The position numbers and the translations under genes are program-made. This document shows, in pieces, positions 1-33,461 of a stretch of DNA of 33,461 bases. The notes beneath the pieces are model-generated. The model ran no database searches. It worked only from the letters and a program-made list of their open reading frames with translations, and was not told where the DNA came from. Position 1 is the first letter of the stretch; each line of letters begins with the position of its first letter. Source of the DNA: a virus; IMG/VR virus record IMGVR_UViG_3300042382_000266, positions 1 to 33,461 of that record; one strand, given 5' to 3'.

Positions 1-127
1 CATATGCGCCAAGTGGTAGCGAGCTGATTGTGTCACCGAGAAGGCGTACGCAAGCATAAACTGTTGACATGCGGATTGCGCTGTTGGCATTGACATCAAT
101 TCCTGAAGGTGCCATGTATGCAGGGCG
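1..127. repeat. Terminal direct repeat, copy 1 (circular contig overlap)
   Basis: Bases 1-127 are identical to bases 33335-33461, compared by eye over the whole length. The portal reading frame continues without interruption from the right copy into base 128 onward, so the overlap marks a closed circle and not two separate genomic repeats. A 127-base overlap is a common assembler k-mer length, so it is probably an assembly artefact and not a biological terminal repeat. Confidence 0.95.
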
Positions 128-208
128 ACCAGGGATCAACGGTTCAACCCATTGACTGTTGTTGGTTCGCTTCTCTCCTGCTCCGCGCAGTCTCTTACTC
201 AAACTCAT
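1..208 (-). CDS. Portal protein, N-terminal part (continues at 33461)
   Basis: This is the start of the HK97-type portal gene whose body is at 31884-33461. Reading the minus strand across the circle gives an ATG at 208-206 and 31 extra residues beginning MSLSKRLRGAGEKRTNNSQW. They run in frame into the downstream MAPSGIDVNAN segment, for a full protein of about 552 residues. The ATG is preceded by AGAAGG seven bases upstream and overlaps the stop of the small membrane gene at 205-357 in an ATGA, which suggests translational coupling. The internal ATG at base 115 (33449) is not the likely start because this longer in-frame extension has its own ribosome site. Portal proteins form the dodecameric ring through which DNA enters the head. 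Confidence 0.9.
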   Translation of the reverse strand, partial: MSLSKRLRGAGEKRTNNSQWVEPLIPGRPAYMAPSGIDVNANSAIRMSTVYACVRLLGDTISSLPLGAY

Positions 209-365: not shown

Positions 366-1892
366 TTAGACTTGAATCGAAAAGTATCGTGCGGTGGGTG
401 GCTTTGGTGGAGCAGGTTGGGTGGCTCTGTCATAACCAAAGATTGAAGCAACGGCGGCATCCACCTTGCGGCGAGAACTTGCCTTTGCCACCATCACGCC
501 TCGTGATGATTGTTTCGTGACACAGTTTGCAATGTGCCTTGCAAGGCGCTCATCCCCATCATGAGTGAATGATTGATTGACAACGCCTTCATAGAATTTT
601 TGTGTTGCAGGAACCATTCGCTCTGCGCTGTTGGGGTAGGCGAGAACGGGGAGTCCTTCTTCATCAAGAACCATAAAGGTTCGGTTCCATCGGGCAGGGT
701 CGAAAACAATCTCGCGCACATCAAATCGAGTATCACGGGCAAAGCCGATGATCGTCTGTTCAACTTCTGCAATTGGTACATACCATCCTTGCTCTGCATC
801 GTCAGGTTTTTCCCATAACCCAACAACGCTCAAGTGTGGCTTGTCTCCGCCAAGTGACCATGCAACAAGTGCAGTTGAGTCATTGGAGAAAGAGCCATCA
901 AATGCAAGGACAACTTCTTCGCCGGCTATTGGAACTCTTGTTCTATCTTCTATTGCTTCCCATGATCCTGTTGGCAACCATGCAACTGAAGTGCTGACAA
1001 AGCAATTGATTCGCTTGGTTCTAAACTCAGCTTCGGGGGTACGCAACACGGCGCTCTCAAAATCGCCTAAGTCAACGATGTCGCCAAGTCCAGGATTGGC
1101 TTGCGCCCACAGACTTTGATCACGGTGATCGCCTTCAGGCTTTGTTGGTTCCCACCATGCAAAGAAAAATGATTTGTCTTGAACTTCTTCTTTGACGATC
1201 TTCTGTCCGTATTGGTAGAGAGAATAGCAAAGTGAGTCTTGACCATTGGCTTGTGTTTTCACACCTGCCGTTGTAATTCCAAAGAGCAATGAATCAGCTC
1301 GTGCGCCACCTGCAAGTGAAAGTGTGTTCCACAAATCCCAACTTGGTTGTGCGTGAACCTCGTCAAAGATGACAAGCGGTGAAGGGTTCAAACCTTCTTT
1401 TGTGTATGCCTCTGCCGATAGCACCCGATAGACAGATGCCTTTTCCTTGAACTCGATTGCATCGCGGTAGAGAGTAAACATTGATGAGAGTTCTTGATCT
1501 AACTCAATCATTCGCTTGGCGGTGCCAAATACAATTCGCGCTTGATCTCGATCTGCTGCACATGAATAGATTTCTGAACCGTTGCCGCCGACTGTTAGAC
1601 CTGCAAGACCCATTGATGCTGCAAGTGCGCTCTTGCCATTCTTGCGTGCCATTCCGACAAGGGCGGTGCGATGACGAAATCTTCCATCTTCGCGGCGAGC
1701 AAGTGCATGACGAAGAAGTTCGCGTTGCCACGGGCGAAGCGATAGCAGTTTGCCGGCTGGCGATGCGACTGAATCTTTTGTCACTCGACATACGGCTTCG
1801 GCAAAGTCGGCGTACAAGTCACCGTCTCCGCGAAGTTGATCTTCAAGTGGAACTTCAGTCAACCATCGTGGTGGCCAAGAACTCTCAGACAT
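366..1892 (-). CDS. terL: Terminase large subunit
   Basis: This 508-residue protein is the ATP-driven DNA-packaging motor and genome-cutting nuclease. The N-terminal ATPase shows a Walker A-like GMARKNGKS at residues 80-88 and a Walker B LVIFDE at about 173-178. The C-terminal RNase H-like nuclease has candidate metal-binding acidic residues at D332 (AFDGSFSND), D399 (FDPARW) and D478 (RKVDAAVA). Length and layout are normal for phage large terminases. Its start overlaps the end of the small terminase by 8 bases, and the portal follows after one small gene, the usual packaging order. The C-terminus YFSIQV is typical of actinophage terminases as I remember them. Confidence 0.95.
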   Translation of the reverse strand: MSESSWPPRWLTEVPLEDQLRGDGDLYADFAEAVCRVTKDSVASPAGKLLSLRPWQRELLRHALARREDGRFRHRTALVGMARKNGKSALAASMGLAGLTVGGNGSEIYSCAADRDQARIVFGTAKRMIELDQELSSMFTLYRDAIEFKEKASVYRVLSAEAYTKEGLNPSPLVIFDEVHAQPSWDLWNTLSLAGGARADSLLFGITTAGVKTQANGQDSLCYSLYQYGQKIVKEEVQDKSFFFAWWEPTKPEGDHRDQSLWAQANPGLGDIVDLGDFESAVLRTPEAEFRTKRINCFVSTSVAWLPTGSWEAIEDRTRVPIAGEEVVLAFDGSFSNDSTALVAWSLGGDKPHLSVVGLWEKPDDAEQGWYVPIAEVEQTIIGFARDTRFDVREIVFDPARWNRTFMVLDEEGLPVLAYPNSAERMVPATQKFYEGVVNQSFTHDGDERLARHIANCVTKQSSRGVMVAKASSRRKVDAAVASIFGYDRATQPAPPKPPTARYFSIQV

Positions 1893-2349
1893 TGCGCTTT
1901 TGCGAAAGTAGTTCGTCTAACTTACTGCGAACCTTAACTTCTGCAACCCCCAACTTGCTTCTGTCTGAAGGTGTCAAACCTAGAACAGATAGAAGTTTCA
2001 AAATCTCATTCTCTGTTGTGCTGATCATTCCGACAAGCGGGTTTGCGTACGCATAGCCTTTGTCTGTGAAAAGGACATAATCTGTTTCTTTCAACTTTTC
2101 AACAAGTTGAGTTTTGCGATCAAACTTTTCGCATAGTTCAATCAAGGCGATGCCATCTGAGTTTGCAATCCACGGTGCCATTGCACGAATGTCTGCCCAA
2201 AGTTTCTTTGCGCCTTTTGAAAGCTGTGCAGGTGGCTTGTCATCAATGCGTGGAAGGGCGATTACATTGCTCACATCAGGCAGTTTGCGCTTGCCTGGGT
2301 TTCCCAATGCACGCTTGAGTTCAGTTGGTTTCGGTGCTGGCCCTGTCAT
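1885..2349 (-). CDS. terS: Terminase small subunit (P27-like)
   Basis: A 154-residue protein beginning MTGPAPKPTELKRALGNPGK, an opening typical of P27-type small terminases. It should recognise the packaging site and recruit the large subunit. The middle part is helical and charged. The gene overlaps the large terminase start by 8 bases and follows the HNH endonuclease gene after a 138-base gap. The start has a weak ribosome site, GAAGG followed by a run of eight A. The identification combines the N-terminal motif with the unambiguous neighbour. Confidence 0.85.
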   Translation of the reverse strand: MTGPAPKPTELKRALGNPGKRKLPDVSNVIALPRIDDKPPAQLSKGAKKLWADIRAMAPWIANSDGIALIELCEKFDRKTQLVEKLKETDYVLFTDKGYAYANPLVGMISTTENEILKLLSVLGLTPSDRSKLGVAEVKVRSKLDELLSQKRNV

Positions 2350-2408: not shown

Positions 2409-2487
2409 AAGCGAATACGCGGGGTTACGCTATCGCACCTCTTTGGCAAATTGTGAGCGTACCCACATGTGCCACCGGGGGGTTCTT

Positions 2488-2784
2488 TTACTGTGAACCT
2501 TTTCGGCTGTTGCATTTGCGGCATAACACTTGCAAGTTGCTTGGAATTGTCAAACCATTTTGTGACAAAGGTTTTATGTGATCAAGAGTCAAGTCTTTGG
2601 TTGAATGACAGATAGTGCAGAAAGGTTGTTGCGCTCGCATTGTGCGCGATAGCTCGTGCCACTTGCTGTCATATCCACGATCTGCACGCTTTGGTCTTTT
2701 GCGTTCTTGTATTCTTTTGCAAGCATCACATCGTGAAGCGCGAACGATAACTCCACAACCATTGCAAGGTCTAGGCAATACCAT
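2488..2784 (-). CDS. HNH endonuclease
   Basis: A 98-residue protein with paired cysteines near the N-terminus (CNGC, CDAC). The core HNH fold has FCTICHS at about residue 55, LTLDHIKPLSQNG at about 65 (the catalytic HxxP-type segment) and NLQVLCRKCNSRKG at the C-terminus, giving a zinc-binding CxxC...CxxC frame. Stand-alone HNH proteins encoded next to terminases are required with the terminase for DNA packaging in HK97-type phages (known for the family). Here the gene lies immediately before the small terminase, which fits. It overlaps the Endonuclease VII gene by 14 bases. Confidence 0.9.
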   Translation of the reverse strand: MVLPRPCNGCGVIVRASRCDACKRIQERKRPKRADRGYDSKWHELSRTMRAQQPFCTICHSTKDLTLDHIKPLSQNGLTIPSNLQVLCRKCNSRKGSQ

Positions 2785-3145
2785 CGGTCTTGATCAGATA
2801 CTCGATTGCCATTGATAACTTTGTTGTGTCATCGCCATAGTAACCAAGACCAACATTGCATCGTGTGCATAAGAGTCCACGAATCTTGTGTGTCTGATGG
2901 TTGTGGTCAACTACTAGACCGCGCTCTGTCTCTGATGTGTGTATGCCACAGATGGCGCATGAATTGTTTTGTGCTTGAAGCAATGAATCATATTGTTGAT
3001 CTGTAATGTTTGTGATGTTGCGATGAATCACTCTGCATTGTTTGCAGATGTCGTATCGCCCATTTGCTGTGCGCTTATCGTTATGAAATGAGTCAAGAGG
3101 TAAATCTAATTTGCAACGCCGACATTTGGATGTCGTGTCACTCAT
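2771..3145 (-). CDS. Recombination endonuclease VII-like protein
   Basis: This frame encodes about 124 residues beginning MSDTTSKCRRCKLDLPLDSF. It has an N-terminal four-cysteine zinc ribbon (CRRC...CKQC), then CAICGI, a catalytic LVVDHNHQTHKIRGLLC segment and CTRCNVGLGYYGDD. This is the hallmark pattern of the T4 Endonuclease VII family, which cuts branched DNA before packaging. I prefer the internal ATG at 3145 over the upstream one at 3196. It overlaps the previous stop by 8 bases and has GAGGAA just upstream, while the longer form would start with a low-complexity methionine run encoded by GATGATGATG that really belongs to the neighbouring acidic gene. Confidence 0.9.
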   Translation of the reverse strand: MSDTTSKCRRCKLDLPLDSFHNDKRTANGRYDICKQCRVIHRNITNITDQQYDSLLQAQNNSCAICGIHTSETERGLVVDHNHQTHKIRGLLCTRCNVGLGYYGDDTTKLSMAIEYLIKTDGIA

Positions 3146-3344
3146 CTTCCTCATCATCATCATCATCGTCTGAAGTATCCAATCCAAGTGCAGCAAGGCG
3201 ATCCTCAGTCGGCAATGACAGGTATGACTGAAGGGTTGCTTGAACTGCTCGGTTCAATAGAGATTCAATTGCATCGAATGAGAGAGATTGATCTGTCATC
3301 AACTCAGTTGCGACATCGCCAATGTTTATGATGATCTTCAGCAT
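3138..3344 (-). CDS. Hypothetical protein with acidic tail
   Basis: A 68-residue protein starting MLKIIINIGDVATELM and ending in a run of Asp/Glu (residues about 58-68). The first 55 residues look like a small helical fold. The acidic tail is encoded by a GAT/GAG tract. The gene is tightly coupled: it overlaps the 31-residue gene before it by 7 bases and Endonuclease VII after it by 8 bases. Family not recognised. Acidic tails often bind basic partners or mimic DNA, but nothing here shows that. Confidence 0.7.
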   Translation of the reverse strand: MLKIIINIGDVATELMTDQSLSFDAIESLLNRAVQATLQSYLSLPTEDRLAALGLDTSDDDDDDEEDE

Positions 3345-4839: not shown

Positions 4840-4991
4840 AGAGATTCACCGCGCCCAAGCGTGCCACCGAACCGCGCCCCACGCCCCTCTAAAGAGGGGG
4901 CGTGTCGGCGCGGTTGTCGGCAGTATGCCGAGAAATTAGCGGATCGGTTCGGCGCGGTTCGGCGCGGTTGCATACTCAAGAGTTATCCACA
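4795..4991. other. Candidate replication origin: DnaA-box-like sites, GC-rich dyad and 10-base repeats
   Basis: This non-coding stretch contains several origin-like elements. TTTTCCACA is at 4795-4803 and a perfect E. coli-type DnaA box TTATCCACA is at 4983-4991, inside the end of the primase gene. A large GC-rich inverted repeat pairs AACCGCGCC (4870-4878) with GGCGCGGTT (4907-4915), with an inner stem CACGCCCC/GGGGGCGTG. Tandem 10-mers of the form GGCGCGGTTC follow at 4941-4970. The GC content is clearly higher than in the flanks. The region lies right after the prim-pol/helicase gene. The elements are seen directly. That they form an origin is inference, and a strong terminator is the main alternative. 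Confidence 0.45.
4941..4970 (+). repeat. Three tandem 10-base iteron-like repeats
   Basis: GGATCGGTTC, GGCGCGGTTC and GGCGCGGTTG follow one another without spacing. The same core GGCGCGGTT occurs at 4907-4915 and its complement at 4870-4878, with a partial copy (ACCGCGCCC) at 4848-4856. The even 10-base spacing puts every copy on one face of the helix, as expected for a binding array. Confidence 0.7.
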
Positions 4992-7048
4992 GGCAAAGTC
5001 TCCAAAGGTCGCACATCATTGACCACATATGACTTCAAATGCTTGAACAATTTTTTCTGCCCATCCTCTCTCATCAGTAGGTGATGGCTCATCACAAGGG
5101 ATGTGAGTGCCGTTGAAATCTCGGTGTTGCCGATCTTGTGACCCTCTTTGCGAATCTTCTCTCTGATCTCATTCAGACCCATCTCATAACCATGTGCTTC
5201 CATAAAAGCTGAGACCAACTCAATCCGTGACTCAGACGATGGGATGGCAACGGTGCCACCTGAGATTGAGACAGAGATGGAGTCATCCTTGCCGTTTCGG
5301 ATATTGGCGATGCCAAGTGTCTTTGCATCAGGGCACAGGGCACGGACAAAGCCGGGCCGATCCTTCGTCACCTTCAAGTCAAGGCAACCGTCAATGCCTC
5401 TGCCAAATGGCATTGACACATCACAGGCAATCGCCACCCCATCAATATCTGCTCTCTTGGCTTGAGCGCCGATGGCATAGTTTCCTCGATTGTCTTTACT
5501 CTTGGTCACATGGTCAATGGTCAAGATACCTGCGCCAAATATCTTCAGCGGCTTCAAGACTTTGAGTGAAAAGGTCGTGGCATCCTTATTCTTTTCCAAG
5601 TCCAACCCAAGCAGGTTCATCGCAGCGTTGACACCATCCACGACAATGAGAGTGGGCAGGTACTTGCCAATCTCTGTTTTCATGATCTCTCCGATGCCAT
5701 CACCGAGAGGTTCATCAGGGTTGGCATACTTGAACGACTTGAGGTTGTCCATGTTGCATTGAAGTGTTTTAAGGCGGTTGAAGATGCCTCGTGCAGAGTC
5801 CTCGAAGTCAATATAGAAAACACAGTTGCCTTTGGCTAACTCTTGGCGCACAGCCTCAAGTGCCACCCAAGTCTTGCCTGACTCAGACTCACCAAAGAGT
5901 GCGTTGACCTTTCCTGCATACAAGATGTTATTGCCATCCTCACGGCGAAGCATTGAGGGCGGCAGTTCCTCATCAAAGTCCTCATTCCAAATCTCACGCG
6001 GAATCCAAGAACTTGTGGTGACTTCCTCATTCTCATCATGGAGCTGAACCATTGAGGGTGCGTGGATTTCAAGACCTGTCCAATCGGTCTTTAACTCGTT
6101 ACTTGCTCCGTATCCTTGCGAGCGCAGGGTTTTGGCTGCTTGTTTGAAATCTCCGTTGTGTTCAATCTTGGCGTAGGCGGCGAACTTGGAGTATGAAGAT
6201 TCTGCATCAAAGATGGTTGATGTGGAGAACACATACAGTTTGCCGTTGCCATTGAAGTTTGTGGTGGCAGATATACCTTCATTCTTGCCCGGTCTGCGCC
6301 AAGTGATTGAATCACCCTTTGAATACACCTTTGTCCACCCTAAAGGCTCAAGGATGCTTTCCCAGGTGACTTTGGCGTTGTAATCATCGCCCGGTGTCAG
6401 GATGCCATCGGTGCGAGTGATGACATCCTCTGCCACAGCTTCAACCCGTGGGATTTCATGGAACATTGCAAAGATTGAGTGAAGGGCATCGCGCTCTTCC
6501 ATTGTGATCGTTGGGATTGTCTCAATGGAACCGCCGATGAGTGTCCAATTGCCACCGTTGGGGTGGGTCTTGCCACCTGACGGCGCGGTGATGGAAAAGC
6601 CACCTGTTCCGCGTGTCTCGGCAAGGACACCCCCATCTTCACCTGCTTTTCGAGCAAGTACGGTGTTTCCTGGCACTTGACCGTCAGAAATCCGATAGAG
6701 CCAATGCAACCCACCCGATGGTGTCATCTCAAGATAACCATTGTTCAAACGATTCCATAGATCACCAAGTCGTGAGTTCTTTGCAATCTCGCCAATCTCA
6801 ATGTGCATCTTTTGAGCTACGGCGCGACCTTCCAACTCCAACATCTCAAGGTTGGAAATGTTGCCCGTGACAACGCCGATTCCGTCAACGCCATCTTTGA
6901 ACCACATCAACAACTCATCTGTTGTCGGCATCTCTGTCTCAAACCGCTTCCATGCAAAAGATGGGCGCTTGGAACCGTCATTGGCGGTTGGGATAACGGC
7001 AATGCCTTGTGCCAAGAAGCGCAAGGCGATTGGAAGCAAATTAGTCAC
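4976..7048 (-). CDS. Primase-polymerase / RecA-like helicase fusion
   Basis: A 690-residue replication protein. Residues 1-190 match the prim-pol fold: GIAVIPTANDGSKRPS, GIGVVTGNISNLEMLELEG, then a TPSGGLHWLY segment at about 109-118. The metal motif usually written DxD reads ELE here (about 71-73). Residues about 375-600 form a RecA/RepA-like ATPase with Walker A GESESGKT (385-392), FYIDFED, Walker B TLIVVDG (466-472) and TIDHVTK (510-516). The C-terminal tail has a helix-turn-helix look (ELVSAFMEAHGYEMGLNEI). It should prime and unwind DNA at the phage origin. The candidate origin follows directly downstream, and a FmdB-like zinc gene overlaps upstream by 4 bases. Confidence 0.9.
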   Translation of the reverse strand: MTNLLPIALRFLAQGIAVIPTANDGSKRPSFAWKRFETEMPTTDELLMWFKDGVDGIGVVTGNISNLEMLELEGRAVAQKMHIEIGEIAKNSRLGDLWNRLNNGYLEMTPSGGLHWLYRISDGQVPGNTVLARKAGEDGGVLAETRGTGGFSITAPSGGKTHPNGGNWTLIGGSIETIPTITMEERDALHSIFAMFHEIPRVEAVAEDVITRTDGILTPGDDYNAKVTWESILEPLGWTKVYSKGDSITWRRPGKNEGISATTNFNGNGKLYVFSTSTIFDAESSYSKFAAYAKIEHNGDFKQAAKTLRSQGYGASNELKTDWTGLEIHAPSMVQLHDENEEVTTSSWIPREIWNEDFDEELPPSMLRREDGNNILYAGKVNALFGESESGKTWVALEAVRQELAKGNCVFYIDFEDSARGIFNRLKTLQCNMDNLKSFKYANPDEPLGDGIGEIMKTEIGKYLPTLIVVDGVNAAMNLLGLDLEKNKDATTFSLKVLKPLKIFGAGILTIDHVTKSKDNRGNYAIGAQAKRADIDGVAIACDVSMPFGRGIDGCLDLKVTKDRPGFVRALCPDAKTLGIANIRNGKDDSISVSISGGTVAIPSSESRIELVSAFMEAHGYEMGLNEIREKIRKEGHKIGNTEISTALTSLVMSHHLLMREDGQKKLFKHLKSYVVNDVRPLETLPVDNS

Positions 7049-11938: not shown

Positions 11939-12136
11939 ATGCAGTTTGTAAAAGTAGCTTCAAACAATTACATCACTCTTGATGAAAAGTATTCAGTTCG
12001 CAACATTGTTGGTGCAGGTTGGATTGTTGTTCAAAAAAATGAAGGTGAAAAGTATTACAGCCTTCAAATTGTTGAACAATCTTTCAAAAATGCTTTTGAT
12101 GCAATGGCTGCACTCCGCACGAAGGTCGGTGCATAA
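11939..12136 (+). CDS. Hypothetical protein, first gene of the plus-strand cassette
   Basis: A 65-residue protein MQFVKVASNNYITLDEKYSV with a beta-rich look (GAGWIVVQKNEGEKYYSLQI) and a C-terminal helix. The GGAG site and the upstream TTGACA promoter support the start. Its stop overlaps the next ATG (TAATG). No family recognised. Its place at the head of the RHH/primase cassette suggests a co-regulated accessory protein. Confidence 0.7.
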   Translation: MQFVKVASNNYITLDEKYSVRNIVGAGWIVVQKNEGEKYYSLQIVEQSFKNAFDAMAALRTKVGA

Positions 12137-12300
12137 TGATTACAAAGCGCGGAAAGCAAGTTAGAGCAATCGGTATTGTGTTTTTGGTTTATGTGCTTTT
12201 CCACATATCTGCAAATCTGTGGTGGGTTGGTATTGATTCACCGAATGCAGAGTTTCTCGGTTGGTGTTGGGGTTCAATGAGCGAATGTGTGGTGTTGTAA
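12136..12300 (+). CDS. Small membrane protein in the plus-strand cassette
   Basis: The frame encodes 54 residues: MITKRGKQVRAIGIVFLVYV, a single hydrophobic helix (about 12-30), then a Trp-rich outer part (NLWWVG, LGWCWG) with two cysteines. It begins in TAATG with the preceding gene and its stop is immediately followed by the RHH gene's ATG, so translation is coupled. Function unknown. Confidence 0.6.
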   Translation: MITKRGKQVRAIGIVFLVYVLFHISANLWWVGIDSPNAEFLGWCWGSMSECVVL

Positions 12301-12432
12301 ATGGTAGGCAAGAAAGTCAGATCAGTTCGCGTGAGTGACCAACTATGGGCACGGGCGATGGCAAAGGCAAAGTCAGAAGGCAAGTCTGTTTCTGAAGTCA
12401 TTGTTGATTTCTTGAAGGAGTACATCAAATGA
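12301..12432 (+). CDS. Ribbon-helix-helix regulator (Arc/CopG-like)
   Basis: A 43-residue protein: MVGKKVRSVRVSDQLWARAM, then KAKSEGKSVSEVIVDFLKEY. A basic beta-strand (VRSVRVSD) followed by two helices joined by EGKSVSEVI is the ribbon-helix-helix fold. It should bind DNA as a dimer. It starts directly after the previous stop and overlaps the primase start (ATGA), so it probably autoregulates the cassette. RHH plus primase is an arrangement reminiscent of plasmid replication control. Confidence 0.8.
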   Translation: MVGKKVRSVRVSDQLWARAMAKAKSEGKSVSEVIVDFLKEYIK

Positions 12433-12887
12433 CAAAAGCCGACACCGCCATTGCCTTTGCCGAAAAGGGTTGGCACATCCTGCCTGTTGCCCCTTATCAA
12501 AAGACACCCTTCTTTCCCATTGCAAAGAATGGGTACAAATCTGCAACAACTGACATTGCAGAGATCGAGAAATGGTTCACTCGCGCTCCGATGCTCAACA
12601 TTGGCATTGCATGTGCGCCTTCATCATTGGTTGTCTTTGACATTGACTTCCGCAATGGCGGAACCACCGATGGTCTCAACCTTGACACATTCACAGTCGC
12701 AACAGGCGATGGCTTGCATCTGTATTACACCGCCCCTGCCGATGCTAAATTCAAGGGCAAACTTCGTGAAGGCGTTGACATCAAGCACAATGGATATGTT
12801 GTGGGTGCAGGGTCATTGCACGAGTCAGGCAAGTTCTATCAAGTAGTCAAAGACATTCAACCTGCACCGATGATGGAGTGGGTATGA
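12429..12887 (+). CDS. Stand-alone primase-polymerase domain
   Basis: A 152-residue protein that matches the N-terminal prim-pol fold alone: FAEKGWHILPVAPYQKTPFF, SATTDIAEIEKWF, NIGIACAPSSLVVFDIDF with the canonical DxD metal motif, then TGDGLHLYYTAP (the GxxH segment) and GVDIKHNGYVVGAGSLHESG. The phage's large prim-pol/helicase carries ELE in place of DxD, so this small protein could supply the active primase-polymerase activity. The AAGGAG site lies eight bases upstream. It is encoded on the strand opposite to the replication block, after the RHH gene. Confidence 0.85.
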   Translation: MTKADTAIAFAEKGWHILPVAPYQKTPFFPIAKNGYKSATTDIAEIEKWFTRAPMLNIGIACAPSSLVVFDIDFRNGGTTDGLNLDTFTVATGDGLHLYYTAPADAKFKGKLREGVDIKHNGYVVGAGSLHESGKFYQVVKDIQPAPMMEWV

Positions 12888-13129
12888 GTTGGATGAATGT
12901 TCTTGCAGTTCCCATTGTGGCACTCATTGCAATGGGTCGTGGAAGAAGATTTGCGATGTGGTCAATCTCTGCCTTTTTCTTTGGCTTTTGGGTATTGATA
13001 CCGCTTCTTTTACTGCCCAAGCGATCAAAAGCTGAAGTTGAAGTTCCAAAAATCTTCATCGCACTTGCAATCAATCATCACATCAAGAAGGAACTGAAAG
13101 GAATCAAATACCCATCAGACATTCTGTGA
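12884..13129 (+). CDS. Small membrane protein, last gene of the plus cassette
   Basis: An 81-residue protein from the ATG at 12884 (MSWMNVLAVPIVALIAMG), which overlaps the primase stop as ATGA. It has two hydrophobic segments (about 1-18 and 25-45) and a basic cytoplasmic tail (HHIKKELKGIKYPSDIL). The gene ends 7 bases before a strong terminator. Family not recognised; coupling with the primase suggests shared expression and perhaps membrane anchoring of replication. Confidence 0.65.
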   Translation: MSWMNVLAVPIVALIAMGRGRRFAMWSISAFFFGFWVLIPLLLLPKRSKAEVEVPKIFIALAINHHIKKELKGIKYPSDIL

Positions 13130-13136
13130 AAATGAC

Positions 13137-13185
13137 AAAGAAATCCCCTTCACCATGACCGACCAATGGTGAAGGGGATTTCTTT
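13137..13185. terminator. Bidirectional terminator, 20-bp perfect stem
   Basis: AAAGAAATCCCCTTCACCAT (13137-13156), a 9-base loop and its exact complement (13166-13185). T-rich flanks on both sides (ATTTCTTT) make it a factor-independent terminator for both the plus cassette ending at 13129 and the minus-strand epimerase gene, whose stop codon (13184-13186) lies on the stem edge. Confidence 0.9.
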
Positions 13186-14047
13186 ATGAGGCAAGTGCGC
13201 GAGCAATGCCTTCTTCGAGGGAGATTTTTGGTTCATAAACTGCCAACATCCGAGATGGATCGCCCACTCGGTATTCAACACCCACAGGTGCATCAAGATT
13301 GGTCTTTATAGGTGCAAGATAACCTGCTTGCAACATCACCATCTCTGCCAACTCAATGAATGAGGTTGGTCTGCCTGAACAGATGTTCATGGTGGAAACA
13401 TTGTTGGTCACGGCTGCAAAGGTTGCCTGAACCACATCATCAATGTGAACAAAATCGCGAACCTGAGTTCCTGCGCCCCACACTTCAAATGGGTCTGCCT
13501 TGCGCTTTGCTCGTTCAATAAAGGATGGGAATGGGTAGTCAAGTGCTTGATCTGAACCGTATCCGCTAAATGGTCGAAGAACACTTACTCGCAAACCTTC
13601 AGCTCTTGCATAAGAGGCGAGCATTTCACCCGATAACTTTGCCCAACCATAGGTGAAGTCAGGTGTTCGGATGTGTTCAAGATTGATGTCAATTTCACGC
13701 AGTTTTTGTTGGTAGGCAAGTTTCTGCAAGAAGATTGGATATGCAGCAGATGAGGAGAAATAGACAATGTGCTTCGGGCGAGTACGGAGTGCCCATTGGA
13801 ACATGTCTGCATCAATGGCAAGGTCAGAGGCAACTGACAATGGGTTTCCCTCAATGGTCATTCGCCCACCGACAATTGCCGCGAGATGAATCACCACATC
13901 AAACTGAGTCGAATCTGTTGCAAAGAAGTGTCGAACCTCTTTGCCATTGACCAAATCAATGCCTGTAATCTCGTGATTCTTGCCATCAAGTGCGCGGTGA
14001 AAAGCACGCCCGACAAATCCTGCATCACCTGTGATAAGAATTTTCAT
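13184..14047 (-). CDS. NAD-dependent sugar epimerase/dehydratase (SDR)
   Basis: An extended SDR protein of about 287 residues. From the ATG at 14047 it reads MKILITGDAGFVGRAF with the GxxGxxG NAD site (residues 7-13), IHLAAIVGG, FSSSAAYP (the catalytic Ser region) and TYGWAKLSGE (catalytic Y133 and K137). It should modify a nucleotide sugar, for instance as a UDP-sugar 4-epimerase or fucose-synthase-like enzyme; the exact substrate cannot be told. It follows two glycosyltransferase-like genes, with the ATGA overlap at 14044-14047, and ends in the terminator. Confidence 0.9.
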   Translation of the reverse strand: MKILITGDAGFVGRAFHRALDGKNHEITGIDLVNGKEVRHFFATDSTQFDVVIHLAAIVGGRMTIEGNPLSVASDLAIDADMFQWALRTRPKHIVYFSSSAAYPIFLQKLAYQQKLREIDINLEHIRTPDFTYGWAKLSGEMLASYARAEGLRVSVLRPFSGYGSDQALDYPFPSFIERAKRKADPFEVWGAGTQVRDFVHIDDVVQATFAAVTNNVSTMNICSGRPTSFIELAEMVMLQAGYLAPIKTNLDAPVGVEYRVGDPSRMLAVYEPKISLEEGIARALAS

Positions 14048-14769
14048 TCCATCTCCCATTCATATTCGTATCTATCAGCACCCGTCAACAAGACAGACTT
14101 TTGTTGATCCACAGCAAAGATGAACTTATCATTCTCATCAAGGGCTGCGCCAATGTGACTGATGGGGTTGGCAGGGTCGAGCAGGTAAGGCTTGCGAACT
14201 GACTTGCCCTCAACTTGGGTGTCATAGAACTCGTCATGGACAAAGCAGGAAAATTGGATTCTTGGGTAAATCATATTTCGCAAGAAGTCTTGATCTTGGG
14301 TGTAATAGTCTGAAATCTCAACCGACTCAATCAGGGCACGGATGTCCTTAAATAAGGCGCACCGAACTGTGAACATACCTGCATTGATGGGGTAATTGTG
14401 ACCCGTTGGGTGGTCTTTCATGATGTGAGCATCAAGACCTGACTCAAGGAACTGCTCGTGGGCGTTCAACTCACGCAAAGACAGGCGAGCATCGGCATCG
14501 CGGAAGGCAACGATGTCGTAATCTAGCTCACAAGCAAGAAAGCGCCACAACTTGGCGGTGTGATCTTCGGGTGCATCTGTTTGAATGATTCGCACATTGC
14601 TGAACAGATTCAAGGTTGAAATCACCCAGGGTGGAACCGATGCCCCTACGAAAAAGACCAACTCGTATTCATCATCCAAAATCTGTTGGGCGATGATGGC
14701 GTTCTTGATTGCACCAACCGAGTACCGCAAATCTGACCCATAAAGTGAGAATGCAATTGCCTGTTTCAT
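14044..14769 (-). CDS. Glycosyltransferase-like protein
   Basis: A 241-residue protein with a Rossmann-type start MKQAIAFSLYGSDLRYSVGA, LVFFVGASVPPWVI, a metal-site-like FRDADARLS at about residue 90, then MKDHPTGHNYPINAGMF and DQDFLRNMIYP. The DAD motif and the GMF/DQDFL blocks are as in GT-A fold transferases. It probably adds a sugar to a surface glycan. It overlaps the previous GT gene and the next epimerase gene by 4 bases each, so the three form one translational unit. Confidence 0.75.
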   Translation of the reverse strand: MKQAIAFSLYGSDLRYSVGAIKNAIIAQQILDDEYELVFFVGASVPPWVISTLNLFSNVRIIQTDAPEDHTAKLWRFLACELDYDIVAFRDADARLSLRELNAHEQFLESGLDAHIMKDHPTGHNYPINAGMFTVRCALFKDIRALIESVEISDYYTQDQDFLRNMIYPRIQFSCFVHDEFYDTQVEGKSVRKPYLLDPANPISHIGAALDENDKFIFAVDQQKSVLLTGADRYEYEWEME

Positions 14770-18435: not shown

Positions 18436-19470
18436 TTAGATGAAAGCAACGCCATATCCATTATTTGAAGGCAGCGTTGCCGGGTTTGCATATTTAGTTC
18501 CAAAGCCTGATGACCAAGGATAAGCCGTGACAAATGGAGTAGTTCCATGAGCAACCGCGATTGCCTCACCTGAAGGGCTGAAGTTAACACCCCAACCCGT
18601 ACCTGTCGGCAATGTTGCTGGGTTTGCGTATTTAGTTCCGAAGCCTGATGACCAAGGGTATGCGGTTAGGTAAGGAGAATTTGCGTGTGCAACAGCAATG
18701 ACATCACCTTGAGGTTTGAATGCGACTCGTTTGCCTTCCCCGGCAGGTATTGTTGCTGGGTTTGCATACTTAGTTCCAAAACCTGATGACCAAGGATATG
18801 CGGTGAGATAAGGAGAACTTGCGTGTCCAACAGCAATCGCATTACCCGAAGGACTAAAACTAACACCCCAACCTGTTCCAGCAGGTAGCGTTGCAGGGTT
18901 TGCATATTTAGTTCCAAAACCTGATGACCAAGGATATGCGGTGATATTGGGAGAAATATAGTGAGCAACAGCAATTGCATCACCTTGAGGCTTAAATGCT
19001 AAATCATAACCGACATTGCCAGGCAGCGTTGCAGGGTTTGCGTATTTAGTTCCAAAACCTGATGACCAAGGATACCCTGCAACATAAGGACTTGTTGCAC
19101 TAGAAACTGCAATTGCATCACCTTGAGGTCTAAACTTAACACTCCAACCTGTGCCTGTCGGTAATGTTGCTGGGTCTGCATATTTAGTTCCAAAACCTGG
19201 TGACCAAGGATATGCGCTCACGGCAGGTGGAGCAGCATGAGCAACAGCAATTGCATCACCTTGAGGCTTAAAAGTGAGGTTCAATCCTGTACCTGTGGGC
19301 GCTGTTGCTGGGTTTGCATATTTAGTTCCAAAGCCTGGCAACCAAGGATATGCCGAAACATTAGACCCGCCTGTATGAGAAACTGCTATGTAAGAAACTA
19401 AAGCCGCTGCAAAGCTACGATACCCACGCGCAGAGGCGTTTGCCAATGTTGAAATAATTGGTGACATCAA
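18436..19470 (-). CDS. Seven-repeat beta-propeller protein, probable adhesin
   Basis: A 344-residue protein made of seven tandem repeats of about 46 residues. The repeat unit is AIAVAH..xP.vTAYPWSSG followed by FGTKYANPATLPTGTGW and VxFxPxGD. WD40-like FSPSG and GWGV strands repeat with the same spacing, and the ends complement one another (the protein opens with SYIAVSHTGG and closes with GYGVAFI). This is what a closed seven-bladed beta-propeller needs. It lies downstream of the tape measure and minor tail genes, so it is probably a tail-tip or fibre adhesin. It starts just after the fibre-like gene. No signal peptide is needed for a virion protein. Confidence 0.85.
   Translation of the reverse strand: MMSPIISTLANASARGYRSFAAALVSYIAVSHTGGSNVSAYPWLPGFGTKYANPATAPTGTGLNLTFKPQGDAIAVAHAAPPAVSAYPWSPGFGTKYADPATLPTGTGWSVKFRPQGDAIAVSSATSPYVAGYPWSSGFGTKYANPATLPGNVGYDLAFKPQGDAIAVAHYISPNITAYPWSSGFGTKYANPATLPAGTGWGVSFSPSGNAIAVGHASSPYLTAYPWSSGFGTKYANPATIPAGEGKRVAFKPQGDVIAVAHANSPYLTAYPWSSGFGTKYANPATLPTGTGWGVNFSPSGEAIAVAHGTTPFVTAYPWSSGFGTKYANPATLPSNNGYGVAFI
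18436..19470 (-). repeat. Seven direct 138-base repeats encoding propeller blades
   Basis: About seven near-identical units spaced 138 bases, each with the core ATATTTAGTTCCAAA on the plus strand. Blades differ mainly at short variable loops after IAVAH and in the ATLPxGxG loop, so the repeats look like recently amplified blades under diversifying change. Confidence 0.85.
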
Positions 19471-25253: not shown

Positions 25254-25661
25254 TCAAGTTGTTGTTTTTGTAATTGCGCCGCTGATAGGCCAGGACACAC
25301 TTGCCGTACTTAACTCGCCCACAGCACCGTTGACCGGAGTCCACTCCGAGATAACGGCCGAAAATCCGTACTGGGGATTGATTGTAGTCGTTGTAGCATT
25401 CACAGGCTTGACTGAAATTGTGACCGCTGTTCCAAGTGTTGGATAAATTGTCTGCTCAATGCTTGATGTTGCATAATCCTGATGAAATTCAAGAGTCACA
25501 GAGTTATCTGCAAGACCTGCCACACGAGTTTTTGCTGTTTGCCCGAACGCCGTGGTCTCAACGATGTCATAACTTGAACTGAGTGAAATTGAACTCACAT
25601 GGTCTGAGATGTCAGTTGATCCAAAAAGGACATATGCGTTTGTAAGAACGATTCTTGCCAT
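25254..25661 (-). CDS. Tail tube protein, paralogue 2
   Basis: A 135-residue protein MARIVLTNAYVLFGSTDISD, ETTAFGQTAKTRVAGLADNS, TLEFHQDYATSSIEQTIYP and AVISEWTPVNGAVGEL. It is about 68% identical by hand count (93 of about 135 positions) to the gene just before it in transcription. This small family is the tail-tube (major tail) type. It lies directly before the chaperones. A one-base overlap of stop and start joins the two paralogues. Confidence 0.8.
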   Translation of the reverse strand: MARIVLTNAYVLFGSTDISDHVSSISLSSSYDIVETTAFGQTAKTRVAGLADNSVTLEFHQDYATSSIEQTIYPTLGTAVTISVKPVNATTTTINPQYGFSAVISEWTPVNGAVGELSTASVSWPISGAITKTTT

Positions 25662-26071
25662 TATGCAACCGCCTTAGTGATTGCTCCGCTTACAGGCCAG
25701 GACACAGATGCGCTGGCCAACTCGCCCACAGCACCATTTACCGGAGTCCACTCTGAGATCACCGCGTTGCAGGAATATGAAGGGTTGAATGCGCTTGTTG
25801 TTCCGCCATTTGGCTTCACAATTACTGCTGCAACTGTTCCAAGTAATGGATAAATTGTCTGCTCAACTTCGCCTGTTGCGTAATCCTGATGAAATTCAAG
25901 AGTGATTGAATTGTCTGCAAGACCTGCCACGCGAGTCTTTGTTGCTGATGATGAAAATGCTGTTGTTTCTACGACATCAAATGTTGATGAGAGCGAGACT
26001 GAGCTGACTAGGTCGCTCAAATCTACTCCACCAACAGAGATGAAGGCGTTTGTAAGAACGATGCGTGCCAT
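25661..26071 (-). CDS. Tail tube protein, paralogue 1
   Basis: A 136-residue protein MARIVLTNAFISVGGVDLSD, ETTAFSSSATKTRVAGLADN, EFHQDYATGEVEQTIYP and SEWTPVNGAVGELASASVSW. Immediately precedes its paralogue. Either copy could be the main tube protein; the other may form a minor ring or a tube decoration. Confidence 0.8.
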   Translation of the reverse strand: MARIVLTNAFISVGGVDLSDLVSSVSLSSTFDVVETTAFSSSATKTRVAGLADNSITLEFHQDYATGEVEQTIYPLLGTVAAVIVKPNGGTTSAFNPSYSCNAVISEWTPVNGAVGELASASVSWPVSGAITKAVA

Positions 26072-31500: not shown

Positions 31501-31884
31501 TTAGCTCGCGAGTGTCAGAGAAACTGTCAGAGACCCACTTGGGATTGTGAAGGTGTCACCTGCCGTGTATGAGTTGCCTGTGATTGCACCGCTGAACAAG
31601 AAGTTTCCTGTTGTCGCGTTATCCCATGCGGTGAAGAATGTTGCATCCTCTGAACCTGCAATGTTTGTCCAAGAGACATTCGCATCTGAAGTCAATCCGC
31701 CACCTGATGCAGCTCCGAAGGAAACTGATTGACGAGTTGTCTCTGTTGCAGGATTGCCTGTGCCATTTGCGCCAGGATCGCCTGTGTGAAGTTTTACATA
31801 TACATTGGCGGCTGAATAGGCGGTGGCGTTGCCTACTGCATCAAGAAACTTGTTTGCAAGATATGAACTCAGACCTGTTGCCAT
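31501..31884 (-). CDS. Small structural protein, LHTGDPG family
   Basis: A 127-residue protein MATGLSSYLANKFLDAVGNA, TAYSAANVYVKLHTGDPGAN and QSVSFGAASGG, SWTNIAGSEDATFFTAWDNA. The NxYVKLHTGDPGxNGTxNPAxETTRxxVSF pattern is common among actinophage minor tail/virion proteins. Its start overlaps the portal stop by one base. A fibre or head-associated role is possible. Confidence 0.75.
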   Translation of the reverse strand: MATGLSSYLANKFLDAVGNATAYSAANVYVKLHTGDPGANGTGNPATETTRQSVSFGAASGGGLTSDANVSWTNIAGSEDATFFTAWDNATTGNFLFSGAITGNSYTAGDTFTIPSGSLTVSLTLAS

Positions 31885-33461
31885 TATTCATCCCCTTCAA
31901 CAAACTCTTCAATGACCTCAACAATGAGGTTGTTTTCATCACGGATAATCTTCTTGCGAACACGAGTGCGTTCAATTGTGTTTGTCACATTGACAGTTGG
32001 AGCATCAACGGTGACATTCGGTGCCTCGACATTGACCTGTGGTGAATCAAGCATGACCATCGCAGGTTCAATCGTGACATTCGGTGCTGCAACATTGACA
32101 GTTGGTTCAGGTACTTGAAGAACCATATGTGGCTGCTCATTGCGAACTTCGCGGACATCATAAGCAGATGCAGGATCAAGTGGGTCAATTTGAGCAATAG
32201 GTTGCAACTGACTTGAAGGAACGCCTGTGTGTGCCATAGGTGGCAATCCAATCGCAGCCAATACCTCTTCAGGGTCATAGCCAACTTGAACGAGCTGTGT
32301 GACGATCTCAGCACGCAACTTGACACCAACATCCTTCGCATCACCTGCATCAATGTTCTGCAATGGCACGCGATAATTGTCACCATCTGCAATTGGTGCC
32401 ATATCTTCCATTGCGTGAACATCGTTCAGGCTCAAGAAACCTTCACGCAAGCCCTTTGTGTAGGCTTCATAGCGCTCAAGGGTTGTTCCACGAAGGAGTG
32501 CATCAAGGTTGAACTTGATGAATCCGTCAGGTTCAGGAAGTAAAGTGCTGAATGCTTGCTCAAGGCGCTCAAGTAATGGGCGCAAGGAGTGCTGAACAAA
32601 GGAAAGATTCTGTGCTTCAACAGATGCAAATGACATCGCACCTGCAACGGGATGACCCAAGAGGCTGATCGGAACGCGGAACAAGCGTGCAATATCTTCC
32701 ACATTGAAGCGGCGTGTGTCGAGCAACTGTGCATCCTGGGCGTTCAAAGTTAATGGCTTGAAAGAAGCGCCACCTGATAGCACGCCAATCTTTCCTGCAC
32801 GATATGGGCCTGTGTGGGTGATGTTCCAATCGCGCCCAATATCTTGTGCCTGATCTTCAGTCAGTTCGCCGGGAACTTCAATCACACCGCCTGGGTTGGC
32901 TGCATTGCCGAAGTATGAAGCAGCATAAGTATCGGCTGCCATAGCAGCGCCGATTGTTAGACGAGCAGCAGCGATTGGGCCGAGACCATAGTGCGAGCCG
33001 GGCAATCTAAACAATGGGATGTGCAGCATTTCATTCTTTGTCAGAATTTGTGTGAATGCGCCTTCCTCATCACGGGTCTGCACCTCGTACACAAGGGGTT
33101 CATTAGGGCGTAGACGGCGAATGCGGACATCATCAGGGTTGAGGCAATAAAGTTCCACAACCTCGTTGTTTTCATCGCGTACGGTCAAGATGAAGGCGTT
33201 TCCGTGGATGTTAAGTGAGGCAATCACTTGCTCATAAAATTCAATTCGTGATGTTTCAGGGTTTGGAGTATTCACCCAATATGGAGTTTCACCATATGCT
33301 GCTGCATAAGAAATGCGAGCGCGACCACGGCGAACATATGCGCCAAGTGGTAGCGAGCTGATTGTGTCACCGAGAAGGCGTACGCAAGCATAAACTGTTG
33401 ACATGCGGATTGCGCTGTTGGCATTGACATCAATTCCTGAAGGTGCCATGTATGCAGGGCG
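31884..33461 (-). CDS. Portal protein, main part
   Basis: The body of the HK97-type portal, continuing to the start at 208. It has MSTVYACVRLLGDTISSLPL, then RIEFYEQVIASLNIHGNAF and VELYCLNPDDVRIRRL. Further in are LHIPLFRLPGSHYGLGPI, SGGASFKPLTLNAQDAQLLD and FRVPISLLGHPVAGAMSF, the hallmark portal blocks. The C-terminus carries repeats of the type VNVxAPNVTV (about the last 80 residues), then a charged tail ending EEFVEGDE. It forms the entry ring of the head. Confidence 0.92.
   Translation of the reverse strand, partial: RPAYMAPSGIDVNANSAIRMSTVYACVRLLGDTISSLPLGAYVRRGRARISYAAAYGETPYWVNTPNPETSRIEFYEQVIASLNIHGNAFILTVRDENNEVVELYCLNPDDVRIRRLRPNEPLVYEVQTRDEEGAFTQILTKNEMLHIPLFRLPGSHYGLGPIAAARLTIGAAMAADTYAASYFGNAANPGGVIEVPGELTEDQAQDIGRDWNITHTGPYRAGKIGVLSGGASFKPLTLNAQDAQLLDTRRFNVEDIARLFRVPISLLGHPVAGAMSFASVEAQNLSFVQHSLRPLLERLEQAFSTLLPEPDGFIKFNLDALLRGTTLERYEAYTKGLREGFLSLNDVHAMEDMAPIADGDNYRVPLQNIDAGDAKDVGVKLRAEIVTQLVQVGYDPEEVLAAIGLPPMAHTGVPSSQLQPIAQIDPLDPASAYDVREVRNEQPHMVLQVPEPTVNVAAPNVTIEPAMVMLDSPQVNVEAPNVTVDAPTVNVTNTIERTRVRKKIIRDENNLIVEVIEEFVEGDE
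33335..33461. repeat. Terminal direct repeat, copy 2 (circular contig overlap)
   Basis: Exact copy of bases 1-127. Removing one copy leaves about 33,334 unique bases. The repeat lies inside the portal coding sequence, which is not where a packaging-site terminal repeat would be expected. Confidence 0.95.

Follow-up and report, generated by a model that had tools for sequence, protein, structure and literature searches.

When the two ends of a viral contig are identical, the question arises whether the repeat belongs to the genome or to its assembly, and what form the packaged DNA takes. The window considered here, i.e. the whole stretch of 33,461 nt that was analysed, begins and ends with the same 127 bases, and an earlier note had read this terminal overlap as the mark of a complete circular genome cut inside the portal gene. 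On alignment of both ends, the identity between 1-127 and 33335-33461 proved exact, 127 was the sole length of prefix/suffix overlap in a check up to 2 kb, and a random origin of such an identity is excluded (about 4^-127). Joined at this overlap, the window forms a circle of 33,334 bp, the relevant features of which are collected in Table 1.

The join is crossed without gaps by three independent IMG/VR assemblies, namely L003 (100% over 5,031 nt), L024 (99.99% over 7,335 nt) and L004 (99.94% over 5,388 nt), the latter also crossing the cos region discussed below (2413-2424). When a contig of 24,291 nt (L083/L221) that is 100% identical and spans 26714 down to 2424 is added, other assemblies account for the entire circle, and the closed 33,334-bp map is well supported. 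As had been claimed, the portal frame continues over the junction: on the circle it runs on the minus strand from 208 over 1/33334 to 31884 as 552 stop-free codons, and the encoded protein matches PF04860 over the whole profile (residues 48-380, E 8e-88) as well as phrog_12 (E 4e-105), the start at 208 being supported by the same 552-aa protein found at 100% identity in independent contigs. The gene set is that of a complete siphophage, with TerS, TerL, portal, S78 protease, capsid, connectors, tail and tape measure, besides endolysin, primase-helicase, exonuclease and RusA. The earlier proposal of a likely complete genome of about 33.3 kb is borne out: the genome is complete, with a unit of 33,334 bp.

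Table 1. Coordinates, in the window, of the assembly overlap, the portal gene, the packaging genes and the predicted cos element.
Feature	Position	Strand	Remarks
Assembly overlap, copy 1	1-127		Inside the portal gene; identical to 33335-33461; 127 nt is a standard metaSPAdes maxK
Portal gene, 5' part	1-208	-	Start codon at 208; continues at 33334
Terminase large subunit (TerL), ATPase and nuclease domains	366-1892	-	PF03354, PF20441; structure 6z6d, E 3.5e-14
Terminase small subunit (TerS)	1885-2349	-	PF05119 Terminase_4, E 3.9e-13; phrog_83, E 8.4e-26
Predicted TerS-side physical end, first base, after end repair	2413	-	CGCTTGGGCATATG...; 8 close-relative contigs, one 100% identical
Predicted 10-nt cos single-stranded extension (3' overhang)	2414-2423	-	5'-CCCGCGTATT-3'; single-copy in the genome
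Predicted HNH-side physical end, last base, after end repair	2424	-	...ATAGCGTAAC; 5 close-relative contigs, one 100% identical (L083)
HNH endonuclease beside cos	2488-2784	-	PF01844, E 4.7e-12; phrog_144, E 4.7e-20; HK97 gp74-like by position
Second HNH-type nuclease, recombination endonuclease VII family	2771-3196	-	PF02945, E 5.3e-21
Portal gene, 3' part	31884-33334	-	552-aa frame across the join
Assembly overlap, copy 2	33335-33461		Redundant with 1-127, exact identity; related record G012 likewise 127 nt, other cut

Regarding the repeat itself, it is an assembler overlap and not a terminal redundancy of the phage. Overlaps between contig ends in metaSPAdes assemblies are exactly maxK in length, and the k list 21, 33, 55, 77, 99, 127 is in use (COBRA paper, PMC10914622). 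In the related circular record G012 (34,403 nt), the overlap is again exactly 127 nt and the circle is opened at another site; since the overlap has the length of a k-mer and this same length occurs elsewhere, 127 is an assembler parameter, and the choice of the portal gene as cutting point is arbitrary and carries no meaning. From the length alone we infer that k was 127 in the window's own assembly. Another related closed record (G016) has an overlap of 123, outside the usual metaSPAdes k list, and a paper stating a 127-bp circular overlap by number was not found in the literature search. In such a de Bruijn-graph artefact, a circular path would have been opened at an arbitrary point and one k-mer printed twice, the closed path arising from the 33,334-bp unit with its two ends linked in a fraction of the DNA that was sampled, be it as intracellular circles, concatemers or annealed cos ends. 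Of the terminal overlap described in the earlier note, the exact identity stands and its status as a property of the genome does not.

A true direct terminal repeat of 127 bases on a linear virion genome, of the T7-like or short-DTR type, would also make a record start and finish with identical sequence. Yet the length coincides with that of the assembler k-mer and recurs at a different cut in G012, the repeat sits within portal coding sequence, L003, L004 and L024 read straight through 1-127 and no recurrent contig end of close relatives falls there, all of which makes this origin extremely unlikely. As exact repeats are able to close a graph wrongly, the window might also be part of a larger phage falsely closed by a repeat of 127 bases or more. 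The probability of this is negligible, however, considering that the repeat lies within one portal gene that is restored intact, that the gene set includes structural, packaging, lysis and replication functions, that relatives with both cos ends are of the same size (e.g. 30,598, 32,188 and 33,411 nt), and that three contigs cross the join.

To locate the ends of the packaged molecule, the contig ends of relatives at least about 85% identical were placed on the circle, physical ends being read here from assembled contigs. Among close relatives, 2413 is the sole recurrent left end (8 of 34) and 2424 the sole recurrent right end (5 of 37), with bounds under uniform breakage of 4e-25 and 4e-13, respectively. 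Both ends are carried by IMGVR_UViG_3300031758_000372 (30,598 nt; L048/L165 and L092), and in the window's own population from other samples, L003 begins at 2413 and L083 finishes at 2424, both with 100% identity. Some ends of relatives are a few to tens of bases off (2396, 2404, 2412, 2422, 2446 and 2447), a scatter near the cos site (2396-2447) that is to be expected from incomplete coverage or noise. Judging from these positions, the packaged DNA appears to end about 2.4 kb from the repeat, between the HNH and small terminase genes, and the virion probably contains a linear molecule. In other words, the designation of circular genome holds for the map, whose closure is real, and fails for the virion molecule, for which the recurrent ends at 2413 and 2424 indicate a linear, cos-ended form.

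The gap between the two end types is always 10 nt, and the candidate cos extension that fills it, CCCGCGTATT, is absent at both types of contig end and present in contigs that read through the site (L004, L007, L017, L023, L085, L094 and L095). It is situated inside the 138-bp gap from the HNH to the TerS gene and is unchanged in relatives with flanks only about 72% alike. The same 10-nt gap is found with a second cos allele, ATAAAC/CCCGATGCCC/TGCAAACGCAG, and with a third, GATAC/CCCGACGCCC/TG[AG]C. In addition, divergent relatives (L028, L033, L036, L170-L174 and L197-L219) exhibit recurrent left contig ends of their own, and CCCG is the start of each of the three 10-nt cos sequences known to date. 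In L214 (1-13) and L216 (1-11), the left end is preceded without any gap by an adapter remnant, GCTCTTCCGATCT, which we take to be the terminal part of the Illumina adapter; these are the sole remnants among the loci compared, and the fusion is direct evidence that the DNA of these relatives physically ends there. Two fixed ends were thus found at one site together with a predicted complementary extension of about 10 nt, as read from assembled ends. The predicted overhang bases are missing at both ends, where a filled-in 5' overhang would show at both; because T4-polymerase end repair would remove a 3' overhang from both ends in just this way, the extensions would be of 3' polarity.

The same ends might result from graph breaks due to strain variation or to a repeat beside the HNH gene, HNH genes being mobile and variable among relatives and variable sites often breaking contigs. 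Such breaks would leave an overlap of maxK (PMC10914622) and not a constant 10-nt gap, which is moreover equal in groups with three different 10-mers; as the 10-nt element is single-copy in the genome and adapter sequence is located at an end, non-physical ends of this sort are very unlikely. Headful (pac) packaging, where permuted and terminally redundant virion DNA gives a circular map, agrees with the present record being a closed map without fixed ends. It is nonetheless very improbable as well, since pac phages have at most one preferred end, with neither a matching opposite end nor a constant gap, whereas eight contig starts and five contig ends flank one 10-nt element here and relatives have adapter fused at the end. 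The account retained, that is a k-mer overlap artefact in the record and a linear virion genome with cos ends, is given a probability of about 0.93.

For this linear, cos-ended genome, HK97-type cos packaging with 10-nt 3' overhangs would be the best account. The genes follow the order HNH-cos-TerS-TerL-portal, TerS belongs to Terminase_4 and the structure 6z6d matched by TerL is that of HK97 TerL, all in agreement with HK97; for TerS a PDB relative was not found by sequence. TerL, guided by TerS and assisted by the HNH protein, would nick cos in a staggered fashion 10 nt apart, generating 10-nt 3' extensions that would read as given in Table 1 on the strand of the transcribed direction, and after injection the ends would anneal and be ligated into a circle. 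In HK97 (TerS gp1, TerL gp2, HNH gp74), the cos overhangs are 3' and of 10 nt according to a legend and of 12 nt in the discussion, and the HNH protein gp74 promotes cos cleavage (PMC9410871). Both phages share the HNH nuclease, TerS and TerL, the latter through the 6z6d match, 10-nt single-stranded ends, presumed to be 3' overhangs in the window phage, as well as an HK97-type portal, S78 protease and capsid. They differ in the overhang sequence and in most protein sequences, and in the window phage the HNH gene is a neighbour of cos and TerS.

The closest isolate by TerL (49%) is the Pontimonas phage phiPsal1 (MG835450, 31,069 bp, actinobacterial host), described in the searched text of PMC6106888, where no cos is reported, as lytic with a circular map. 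It has the same order of HNH, record origin, TerS, TerL and portal, with the HNH homologue in the same place, and likewise a circular map without integration, whereas much of its replication region and its capsid gene are without detectable relationship. The origin of its record, ...CTAC/CCGCCGCCTG/ATGCTTTCGCACATACCCGCAG, looks like a cos of the kind found in the window phage; the window cos 10-mer was not found in phiPsal1, the origin sequence there being different. By description, the isolated Nanopelagicales actinophages of Planktophila, E7 and F5 (PMC10202952), resemble the window phage as freshwater actinophages with 45% GC, a WhiB-like regulator and a glycosyltransferase, and differ by a genome of about 39 kb and by a sigma-70 factor that was not seen in the window. 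The WhiB-like regulator encoded in the window, a factor considered as an actinophage marker (PMC10202952), points to a host in the Actinomycetota.

Since the genome is complete, the lack of an integrase can be taken as a real absence, as had been judged beforehand: in a six-frame search of the window in which the controls were detected, tyrosine and serine integrases (PF00589, PF00239) gave no match at E <= 1, and no integration PHROG was present among the proteins scanned. This absence alone is not proof of a lytic life style. A TerL search of bacterial genomes for integrated relatives returned one match of 58% on an 11-kb MAG contig, which is not evidence of a prophage. On a MAG contig (L220, 1059-3662), TerL is split by an in-frame, intein-like insertion of ~320 codons in an open frame of 868 aa. 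That the joined molecule is also a circular, integrase-less episome persisting in an actinobacterial host is unlikely; if true, the closed form would reflect carriage and not lytic growth alone.

Besides packaging, several features of the window deserve mention. Small overlapping ORFs (65, 54, 43, 152 and 83 aa) form an island on the plus strand (11939-13129) within a minus-strand genome; by eye, the 43-aa ORF has a ribbon-helix-helix look, and the 152-aa ORF encodes a free-standing Prim-Pol domain (PF09250, E 6e-30), besides which the window has a 690-aa Prim-Pol/AAA protein encoded at 4976-7048. The perfect inverted repeat at 13137-13185 (20-nt arms, 9-nt loop), which separates the convergent ORFs at 12878-13129 (+) and 13184-14059 (-), is probably a two-way terminator. 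The 344-aa protein encoded at 18436-19470 (-), with about seven 46-aa repeats (138-nt period in the DNA) and weak beta-propeller matches, is perhaps a tail adhesin. Two adjacent paralogues of the major tail protein (25254-25661 and 25661-26071, -) are 80-87% alike in DNA stretches, and a gene of the sulfotransferase family (PF13469; 17294-18124, +) is a lone plus-strand gene beside the tail and lysis genes. Rfam and tRNA searches of the window gave no matches.

The phage is ordinary in kind, and its cos site adds modestly to what is known. The site provides an abundant group of uncultured actinophages with a cos that can be tested. Setting assembler artefact apart from genome biology is of relevance as the two are often blurred in counts that class 'DTR' contigs with the terminally redundant phages. 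Beyond this phage, cos sites can be recognised without any reads from contig ends that recur in public assemblies with a gap of constant length between them.
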